From the NCBI RefSeq assembly GCF_000317045.1, contig NC_019703.1, positions 1,228,501 through 1,292,500 of the forward strand: DNA of 64,000 nucleotides. The letters run 5' to 3'. This document shows positions 34,743 to 37,715 of the stretch, piece by piece. This stretch comes from Geitlerinema sp. PCC 7407 (GTDB lineage: Bacteria > Cyanobacteriota > Cyanobacteriia > PCC-7407). A model generated the notes under the pieces. That model had not been told where the DNA came from. It saw only the letters and a program-made list of their open reading frames with translations, and ran no database searches. The translations under genes were made by a program, and so were the position numbers. Each line of letters begins with the position of its first letter. The stretch's first letter is position 1.

Positions 34743-35633
34743 CTAGTTGCGGCTGGGCTGCGCCTCTCGCCCAAAGAGCTGGGGAGCGATCGCCTCTGAG
34801 GGCTTGAACTGTACATCAGCGCTCCCCTGGATGTAGCTGTGGAGCATCACCAGGGTCTCGGCGAGCTGGTTGAGGCGATTTTCCAAAGTTTGCTTTTGGG
34901 CCAGGAGCTGGCGCAGCTTTTGGTGGCGGGCGATCGCCAGACTGACGCTCGGCAGCTGCTCAATCGGGCAGTGCTTCGCCCAGATCTTGCCATCTTCGTC
35001 TAGGCCACACAGCCGATACGTCGTCTGTGGCGTATCAGGAATCTGCGAAGGCGGTAAGTTGACCTTGTTGAGATAGCTGCGCACCCGGTCCAGATCGGCC
35101 TGACTCAAAGGCTGAGAACCTTCGGCGTCGGACTCGAGCCAGCCATCCACGATCGGCCCCTCCAAATAAAGCGCCTGAATTTGGTCGAGGGTGCTTTGCA
35201 GCTGAGACTGCCAGCCCGCCACGATGGCCTCCATTTCGTGGAGTAGGTTCATCGCCAGGGCCGGGTTGGCGCCGTGGCGATGGCTGCTGAAGCTCGTCGG
35301 CTTGACTTTGGGCAGAGAAGGCGCTTTTGCGGCCTGGCTATCGACCGGAAAGGGCTCCACCGTTGTCTCAGAAGCGGGCGATCGCCGAGAAGCACTAACG
35401 GTAAAAGAAGGCGTTGACTCCCCGCGATGGCCCGGCGATCGCGGCGCTGTATCCGGCACAGGGGTTGCAGAGACTGTCACCGTCAAGGGATCTCGGCCAG
35501 CGGCAGGTGCGTCCCCCACGGAAGGAGGACCCCCAACTGCAAAAGACGGCATGCTAGGGCCAGAGGGGCCAGAAGCACTCTGAGACGCTAGCTGATTTAA
35601 TGTTGCTTCGATCCGCTTGAGATTTGGATTCAT
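34743..35633 (-). CDS. Low-complexity coiled-coil protein of unknown function
   Basis: I do not recognise a family. About 296 residues from the ATG at 35633, with a strong GGGAGG site before it; the open frame extends further upstream but looks non-coding. Residues 1-135 are rich in Ser, Pro, Gly and Thr with no predicted fold. The C-terminal 160 residues are helical: NLLHEMEAIVAGWQSQLQST and then a heptad-like ARHQKLRQLLAQKQTLENRL run, with TTYRLCGLDEDGKIWAKHCP in between, which looks like a small beta-rich insert. No signal or membrane segment is seen. It lies upstream of the polysaccharide genes on the same strand but 188 bases away, so a link is possible, not shown. Confidence 0.65.
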   Translation of the reverse strand: MNPNLKRIEATLNQLASQSASGPSGPSMPSFAVGGPPSVGDAPAAGRDPLTVTVSATPVPDTAPRSPGHRGESTPSFTVSASRRSPASETTVEPFPVDSQAAKAPSLPKVKPTSFSSHRHGANPALAMNLLHEMEAIVAGWQSQLQSTLDQIQALYLEGPIVDGWLESDAEGSQPLSQADLDRVRSYLNKVNLPPSQIPDTPQTTYRLCGLDEDGKIWAKHCPIEQLPSVSLAIARHQKLRQLLAQKQTLENRLNQLAETLVMLHSYIQGSADVQFKPSEAIAPQLFGREAQPSRN

Positions 35634-36342
35634 CGATGGCCTCCCAGGACAGCTCAAACAACAGTCAAGAAGGTGGGGCAGGCAAGGACAGGGCGCGCAA
35701 AACACCAACCCCGTTTGCCGTCCAGCTGTTGCGGCCATTTTGACACACTCTCTGGCCAAAAGGGGTGAGGATTTCCTCAAGTCTCATTTGGGCGCTCCCA
35801 AATAATTGGTGTTAGAGTGAGGGAGACAGCTTGCGGATGCTCAAAAACGTTGAACTTCCCTCGGTTAACTGGATACCCGTGGCGACCACTTTGGTATCTA
35901 GAACTAAAACTGAAGCGTAGACGGCAGTGTGACCCAGCGCTGTCTTGGGTTGATCGTTGTGAAGCGCCCAGTATGAGCTGACCGACCTGTAAGTACAGGT
36001 TTGCGTCTAGCGGTTTTCGCGATGTCTAGTGCAAAAACCGCGACAGGACAATGACGCAGACTGGGTCGGTCAAACGCTCGAATTAAGAGCTTTTAACCAT
36101 CACTGAATTAAAGATCGCGACGTAAATCTTGGTGGATTTGCTGGCAGCTGCGATCGCGTTTTTTGCGCCTAGGCAAGGTTCTTTAAGGCGACTTTGGAAC
36201 GCGAGCGATCGCCTGTTATGCCTTGCTCCCCAAGCTTTACTAGAGGCTGCTGCCATTTGGCTGCTAGCCTCAAGGATCTGCCTCAGTGACGTCCTAACGA
36301 ACTTAGCGCTTCACATCCATTACCCATAGGACGCTCATCATC
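35634..36342. other. 709-base spacer with dense RNA-like secondary structure
   Basis: No gene is seen; the open frame 36129-36329 starts with TTG and has no family resemblance. A perfect 7-bp hairpin (ATTTGGG 35786-35792 with CCCAAAT 35797-35803) is followed by the structured block described next. After 36095 the sequence up to the speY-like start is unstructured and contains two HIP1-like sites. Confidence 0.5.
35871..36094 (+). ncRNA. Candidate structured non-coding RNA
   Basis: Stems read directly are: GGATACC/GGTATCT (35871-35877 with 35893-35899) enclosing GTGG/CCAC; ACCCA/TGGGT (35932-35936 with 35946-35950); CCTGT/ACAGG (35986-35990 with 35995-35999); TGCGTC/GACGCA (36002-36007 with 36053-36058) enclosing GCGGTTTT/AAAACCGC (36010-36017 with 36034-36041); and an outer TGACCGACC/GGTCGGTCA (35979-35987 with 36064-36072). 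Competing long-range pairs exist: GACCCAG 35931-35937 with CTGGGTC 36061-36067, and AGCGT 35914-35918 with ACGCT 36074-36078. A GCTC/GAGC hairpin plus TTTT (36076-36094) could end it. TTGAAC at 35850-35855 with GATACC 16 bases later is a weak promoter. The plus strand is inferred from this terminator. I cannot assign it to a known class; 6S RNA is one possibility from size and rod-like pairing. Confidence 0.45.
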
Positions 36343-37554
36343 ATGTCATCACTGCGCAGCCGCAAAATTGCTCCCGCCCCTATTCCCACCAACATCAACA
36401 TCACGGACCTCATCGACGGCTATTTCACCGCCTACAACTCTGCGCGCCTGCGGGAAATTTGCCATCTCTTGAGCCGGGAGGTCATGCAAGAAGGCGTCAC
36501 CGTCGCCCTGAGCCTTTCCGGCGCAATGACGCCAGCGGGTTACGGCGTGTCTGTGCTAGCGCCCTTAGTGCGAGCGGGCTTCATTGACTGGATCATTAGC
36601 ACTGGGGCCAACCTCTACCACGACATGCACTATGGCCTGGGCCTCAGTCTCTACGCCAGCAACCCCTTTGTAGACGATGTCAAACTGCGCCAAGAAGGCC
36701 GGATTCGCATCTATGACATTGTCTTTGGCTATGACGTCTTGCTCGAGACCGACGCCTTTATTCGGGAAATTTTGCGCGCCGAGCCCTTCCAAAAGCGTAT
36801 GGGAACAGCGGAGTTCCATCACCTCTTGGGTAAGTACGTCCGAGAAGTCGAAAAGCAGCTAGGCGTCCAGCACTCTTGCCTCTTGGCAACGGCCTATGAG
36901 TGCGGCGTGCCGATCTACACTTCGTCGCCGGGGGACAGCTCCATCGGCATGAACGTGGCGGCCCTAGCCCTGGAAGGATCGCAACTGATGATCGATCCCT
37001 CGCTGGACGTGAACGAAACCGCTGCGATCGCCTACAGTGCCCGAGAGACCAATATTCCGGGTGTCGAGGGCAGAAGTGCTGCTGTGATCTTGGGCGGCGG
37101 CAGCCCCAAGAACTTCTTGCTCCAAACCCAGCCTCAGCTTCACGAAGTCCTGGGCCTTGAGGAGCGCGGCCACGACTACTTTGTCCAAATCACTGACGCG
37201 CGTCCGGATACCGGTGGCCTCTCGGGCGCCACTCCCAGCGAGGCGGTGAGCTGGGGCAAAGTCGACCCAGAGGAACTCCCCAACACCATCGTCTGCTACA
37301 CCGACAGCACGATCGCGCTGCCGATCATCGCAGCCTACGTGATGAATCAGTGCGAGCCCCGCCCGCTCAAGCGCCTCTACGATCGGCGCGGAGAGATGCT
37401 CTCGCTGCTCAAGGCAGATTACGCCGCGGCTCGCGCAGCCGCAAAATCAGCCGAGAAGTCTTCGCTGAGCACCCTGCCCATGCAACCGGTGCAGAAGGAA
37501 CCTGCGCCAGTCGTGGCAACCTATCCCTGTGGAACGCCCATCCGCCGCAGATAG
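36343..37554 (+). CDS. Deoxyhypusine synthase family protein (homospermidine synthase-like)
   Basis: A 403-residue NAD-dependent enzyme of the deoxyhypusine synthase fold. Seen are the N-terminal [21 protein letters not shown] and [16 protein letters not shown], the central [16 protein letters not shown], and the probable catalytic Lys256 in [13 protein letters not shown], which aligns with the aminobutyl-carrying lysine of true deoxyhypusine synthase. Bacteria lack eIF5A; the bacterial relatives are believed to transfer the aminobutyl group from spermidine to putrescine (homospermidine synthesis) or to modify other targets. [15 protein letters not shown] provides the spermidine-site Trp-Gly-Lys. 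It stands alone, preceded by the structured spacer and followed by a perfect palindromic terminator. Confidence 0.9.
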
Positions 37555-37619: not shown

Positions 37620-37655
37620 CAAAAAGTCCTCGGCAGATCTGCCGAGGACTTTTTG
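37620..37655. terminator. Perfect 36-base palindromic terminator
   Basis: A 36-base perfect inverted repeat: AAAAAGTCCTCGGCAGA (37621-37637) meets its reverse complement TCTGCCGAGGACTTTTT (37638-37654), plus one more C-G pair. The A and T runs at both ends make it work in both directions, for the speY-like gene and for aroC. Confidence 0.93.
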
Positions 37656-37715
37656 CACGACGTGTCTGTGAATGGGAAATCTCCAGCTAACGCTTCGCGT
37701 CTAGCTGGATGAGCG

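Follow-up and report, generated by a model that had tools for sequence, protein, structure and literature searches.

A conserved TTG-started leader peptide and a covarying stop-codon stem form a probable attenuator of cyanobacterial deoxyhypusine-synthase-like genes

The window, the whole stretch of 64,000 nt of Geitlerinema sp. PCC 7407 DNA analysed here, carries on its + strand, at 36343-37554, a deoxyhypusine-synthase (DHS)-like gene that resembles speY and homospermidine synthase genes (PF01916, E 1.3e-69). Two DHS-like paralogues, about 31% identical, can be distinguished, a type A of 403 aa, to which the gene of the window belongs, and a type B of about 355 aa. Between this gene and the convergent chorismate synthase gene lies an inverted repeat, AAAAAGTCCTCGGCAGATCTGCCGAGGACTTTTT (about 37620-37657), a bidirectional terminator by its appearance. 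On the other side of the locus, a 345-codon ORF on the - strand (34743-35780) has no Pfam match, and its real start may be an ATG near 35634. The first-pass annotation had regarded the region upstream of the DHS-like gene as gene-free and had proposed that its stems, at 35871-36094, belong either to a free-standing RNA, 6S-like or switching, or to a leader of the polyamine-related gene. The premise was wrong: positions 35850-35981 (+ strand), divergent from the 345-codon ORF, hold a conserved ORF that is not annotated, with 43 codons, a TTG start, a TGA stop at 35979-35981 and the product MNFPRLTGYPWRPLWYLELKLKRRRQCDPALSWVDRCEAPSMS. It is preceded by an extended -10 promoter element, TGTTAGAGT (TGnTAnnnT, 35810-35818, + strand), with a predicted transcript start at about 35825, and the DHS-like gene is its presumed target.

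Selection on this ORF was assessed in 75 distinct homologues. Over core codons 15-41, pN/pS was 0.22 in the ORF frame, whereas the two alternative frames gave 1.54 and 1.62, and diversity at codon positions 1, 2 and 3 was 0.20, 0.17 and 0.50. These substitution patterns show that 35850-35981 codes for a peptide selected as protein; most of what had been taken for a non-coding RNA is a gene that went unnoticed. Of 104 loci, 90 start with TTG, 12 with GTG and 2 with ATG. A longer ORF, initiated at a GTG 11 codons 5' of the TTG of the window, was ruled out: conservation starts at the TTG, and in 59 of the 104 loci a nearby in-frame stop, followed by no intervening start, leaves the assigned codon as the sole possible one. 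The TGnTAnnnT motif recurs in the 75 nt preceding the start codon, mostly 40-50 nt away from it, at 97 of the 104 loci (13% of shuffles), and it is also visible in the alignments. The leader ORF is thus predicted to have its own extended -10 promoter.

Conservation of the peptide is uneven. Its N-terminal third is variable while its C-terminal 29 residues are nearly invariant, a pattern expected for a nascent chain that is read in the exit tunnel. In the homologue alignments, W15, L17, L21, R25, D28, P29, L31, S32, D35, C37, E38, P40 and S41 are near-invariant, with the Cys changed to Asn in two type-B leader peptides. Codon counts over 105 loci further pointed to the conserved CCY-AGT codons of Pro40-Ser41 (35967-35972, + strand): the Ser41 codon (35970-35972) is AGT in all 105, whereas the conserved Ser32 freely uses TCN, and the Pro40 codon is CCC or CCT in 98. 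The RNA pairings tested provided no explanation for the synonymous constraint at Ser41. When three members of the peptide family were queried against Pfam, NCBIfam and PHROGs, no family was found at E up to 1; a search of PDB sequences returned no family, with a best match at chance level (E 2.8), and a search for viral relatives of the ORF confirmed none. Leader peptides as such are a known kind; as a family, with this target and in this phylum, the present one appears undescribed in the libraries and open-licence literature searched.

The stems noted from the sequence at 35871-36094 are present as written, and the 224-nt region folds better than chance (-83.6 kcal/mol, z -4.2, equalled by none of 200 shuffles), but not all of them are conserved in homologues. 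Covariation delineates a conserved RNA element at 35979-36072 (+ strand), composed of a stem P1, a UGUAACU-like bulge, a second stem P2 and a variable apical loop. P1 is the outer 9-bp stem of the first-pass annotation, pairing TGACCGACC (35979-35987) with GGTCGGTCA (36064-36072), both on the + strand, and its strong covariation confirms that part of the claim. In an alignment of 64 distinct sequences made from sequence alone, P1 is 99% paired, with 6 of its 9 pairs changed on both sides, which is above every shuffle, although such shuffles leave the relatedness among sequences in place; sliding its register lowers pairing to 51% or less. Cognate P1 strands form 8.68 of 10 Watson-Crick pairs, compared with 6.96 +- 0.155 once partners are shuffled, a test that is more biased than that on the sequence-only alignment because its 3' strand was picked by complementarity. 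P1 begins at the stop codon of the ORF, so that a covarying RNA structure is tied to the place where the ORF ends. In loci whose stop comes four codons later (L063-L075 and L122-L124), P1 stays directly 3' of the PSM codons.

The stems enclosed by P1 fared differently from each other. The inner stem P2 (35998-36007 with 36053-36062, + strand) covaries, being 82% paired against 76 +- 1% in shuffles, whereas the 8-bp hairpin at 36010-36017 and 36034-36041 falls within the variable loop and lacks conservation across homologues. A 5' hairpin within the ORF (35871-35877 with 35893-35899, + strand) displays modest covariation, partly at synonymous positions (0.88 paired against 0.85 +- 0.006, with 0 of 500 shuffles equal). 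By contrast, the two long-range pairs that had been proposed to compete with P1 are present in the window but show no excess over shuffles, either for GACCCAG/CTGGGTC (35931-35937 with 36061-36067; 0.83 vs 0.82) or for AGCGT/ACGCT (35914-35918 with 36074-36078; 0.57 vs 0.57). The most obvious switch, an alternative CCCAGT/ACTGGG pairing, was set aside for its slight excess only (0.896 vs 0.884, with 7 of 500 shuffles equal), and a TTGGG/CCCAG hairpin within the ORF (35945-35949 with 35967-35971) is weak, with 1 of 500 shuffles equal and at most three sequences compensating. The weak terminator-like hairpin at 36076-36094 (+ strand), GCTC-GAATTAA-GAGC followed by TTTT, is there as described; a comparable hairpin with a T-run 3' of P1 occurs in only 19 of 68 homologues, compared with 7% of shuffles. 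All f17 genomes but L181 have ORF-end codons, CCTAGTCC, with complementarity to GGACTAGG, a sequence overlapping the Shine-Dalgarno region of type B, and with 8-9 nt of complementarity to the ribosome-binding region GGACTAGGAGG, a possible translational switch judging from this pairing.

Taken together, the covariation argues for a real and previously uncurated RNA element at the site. Rfam gave no family at its threshold in the whole window, a lax local search at the site returned one chance match only (E 4.9), and a tRNA/tmRNA search rejected these as the identity of the site. The 6S RNA model (RF00013) has no covariance-model match there, and the 6S RNA of the genome is located elsewhere (C1:1660954-1661140, 101.6 bits). 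A free-standing structured RNA, 6S-like or of a new class, would agree with the strong folding, the covarying stems and the promoter- and terminator-like ends. It is nonetheless very improbable: substitutions are governed by codon structure, the codon test already contradicting its 5' half, the competing stems do not covary, and neither Rfam nor the placement of 6S RNA speaks for it.

By contrast, there is good support, from the coding selection and the genomic context, for a leader that belongs to the polyamine-related gene. A same-strand DHS gene is found 45-760 nt 3' of the leader in 104 of 107 loci (102 of 105, plus L193 and L194), showing by gene order that the leader is linked to DHS-like genes; cis-control of these genes by the leader is well supported, though the long spacer and a possible second promoter of the window-type gene keep it a probable rather than a certain reading. 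The three loci without a downstream DHS gene are L021, at a contig edge, the orphan L121, and the orphan L187, whose C-terminus is altered. The latter two come from Nostocaceae-like genomes, and the L187 sequence departs right after CCTAGTA. In one genome (G043), both DHS paralogues are present, each preceded by its own copy of the leader. Measured from leader stop to synthase start, the distance is 361 nt in the window and ranges over 120-753 nt among type-A loci. In type-B loci it amounts to 54-82 nt (several lineages), about 45 nt (L193 and L194) or roughly 200-440 nt (others), and 18 type-B copies, plus L193 and L194, fall below 100 nt. Several of these short-spacer type-B leaders have the peptide motif and no P1 element. 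This last observation bears on a classic metabolite riboswitch, an RNA aptamer 5' of the synthase beside which the ORF would be incidental. The sequence conservation of the P1/P2 element and the polyamine-related target would suit such an aptamer, but selection acts on the peptide, and it is the peptide motif that is kept where P1 is missing, so that we give this explanation hardly any weight. As to the target itself, an Anabaena DHS homologue is needed for homospermidine synthesis, as Burnat et al. 2018 are cited in PMC9992855. By this analogy, the target of the leader is most likely a gene of the homospermidine-synthase type, and probably a polyamine gene acting in homospermidine synthesis.

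Matches to the 271 bases surrounding the site occur in 23 of 59 genomes from the class of the window strain, spread over many families. A six-frame profile search yielded credible matches to the leader in 21 of 386 cyanobacterial genomes, all of them among the 84 with PF01916 (Fisher p 1.4e-15 for co-occurrence), and within this search set the leader is present in 7 of 7 Cyanobacteriia genomes with a strong type-B gene. Searches by family found it in 8 of 8 f17, 35 of 38 f23 and 15 of 193 f31 genomes. Among 80 named contigs with a DHS-like gene, the leader lies upstream in most non-Nostocales, including Leptolyngbya, Oculatella, Stenomitos, Laspinema, Hormoscilla and Planktothricoides, and is absent in Nostocales, many of which have a type-A gene without leader. 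In Leptolyngbya-type loci (L033-L046 and relatives), a conserved TATGC-containing element, CTTTTATGCTGTC, is located 30-45 nt 5' of the type-A DHS start, and leaderless Nostocales have AACATTAGATTCGGCG / AACATTAGATT at this site instead. The TATGC-containing element is possibly the promoter or a regulator site of the type-A gene itself. Finally, what appears to be a decaying copy of the leader, the degenerate remnant NYPWRRSWELEVSWKQQRGTEPAH..., is found in L125 (G264) about 450 nt 5' of a type-A DHS gene.

Could the ORF instead encode a stable small protein acting in trans, for instance a partner or regulator of the DHS-like enzyme, the stem being merely a terminator or a 3' UTR? Its own promoter motif, the terminator-like hairpin found in some cases, the strong protein-level conservation, the often long spacer to the synthase and the persistence of the orphans L121 and L187 are all compatible with such a product. 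However, the uncommon TTG or GTG start is kept nearly everywhere, the N-terminus is variable, the stop-codon stem covaries and AGT is invariant at Ser41; moreover, several type-B lineages have spacers of about 45-82 nt, and one genome has a separate copy before each paralogue. We consider a trans-acting protein unlikely. The explanation that we favor, and hold to be probable, is that the leader peptide and the stop-codon stem, joined in some lineages by the terminator-like hairpin, constitute a cis-acting attenuator of the DHS-like gene. As an attenuator would require, a short ORF, coding by its substitution pattern, lies on the same strand 5' of the target gene. We counted for this attenuator the selection in a single frame, the kept non-AUG start with its promoter motif, the near-invariant C-terminus, the covarying stop-codon stem, the DHS linkage and co-occurrence, the double copy in G043, the ORF-end complementarity of the f17 genomes and the role of the Anabaena homologue, and against it the spacer length in the window, a possible second promoter, the scarcity of terminators (19/68), the slight covariation of the CCCAGT/ACTGGG alternative, the leaderless type-A Nostocales and the L121 and L187 orphans.

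In the proposed attenuator, binding of a polyamine or a precursor to the nascent chain within the exit tunnel would make a ribosome translating the leader pause near the end of the ORF, at the Cys-Glu-[Ala/Gly]-Pro-Ser codons or at the stop codon. In the stop-codon stem, the 5' strand would then be masked by the paused ribosome, which would alter whether transcription or translation proceeds into the synthase gene. That the leader is translated in vivo, that the ribosome arrests on it, which ligand it senses and in which direction control runs are inferred as parts of this proposal. A wider version holds that the WxLx(3)Lx(3)Rx(2)DPxLSWxDxCE[AG]PS chains form a new family of polyamine-sensing arrest peptides, which would sense homospermidine, putrescine or spermidine, switch the stop-codon stem and act on the two DHS paralogues via termination or Shine-Dalgarno sequestration, depending on the lineage; this version is tentative, and on balance we lean slightly against it. 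Only a few leader peptides that sense small molecules are known, and the literature searched yielded no description of one for cyanobacteria or for the synthesis of homospermidine. Being conserved and easy to manipulate, a leader before speY-type genes would make cyanobacterial polyamine control directly testable. More generally, TTG-started peptides missed by annotation can hide in the conserved "intergenic RNA" of cyanobacterial genomes.

Compared with known systems, the locus resembles 6S RNA in length and in its rod-like fold and differs from it in that the leader region is coding. The Rfam elements Cyano-1, Cyano-2, glnA, Downstream-peptide, psaA, psbNH and PhotoRC are likewise cyanobacterial RNA elements, and none matches; Downstream-peptide RNAs adjoin small ORFs (PMC2864571), whereas here the RNA element follows the leader ORF and a DHS-like gene is the presumed target. 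SpeFL, the leader of speF in E. coli and other gamma-proteobacteria, senses L-ornithine (PMC8429421). It too is a short ORF 5' of a gene for polyamine biosynthesis, with conserved residues spread over a nascent chain of about exit-tunnel length. SpeFL belongs to another phylum and acts on another enzyme, the cyanobacterial leader has a non-AUG start, and no obvious sequence similarity between the two is known. TnaC, the leader of tnaCAB, likewise has conserved Trp, Asp and Pro residues; its arrest is of the termination type, and control falls on the RNA just 3' of the stop codon. TnaC responds to another ligand and is Rho-mediated, and most cyanobacteria are not known to have Rho, whereas the cyanobacterial leader has a covarying stem from its stop codon. 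In conclusion, since the exit-tunnel length, the conserved C-terminal two-thirds, the stop-codon stem and the polyamine target resemble SpeFL and TnaC, the cyanobacterial leader plausibly acts, by analogy, through metabolite-dependent ribosome arrest as they do.
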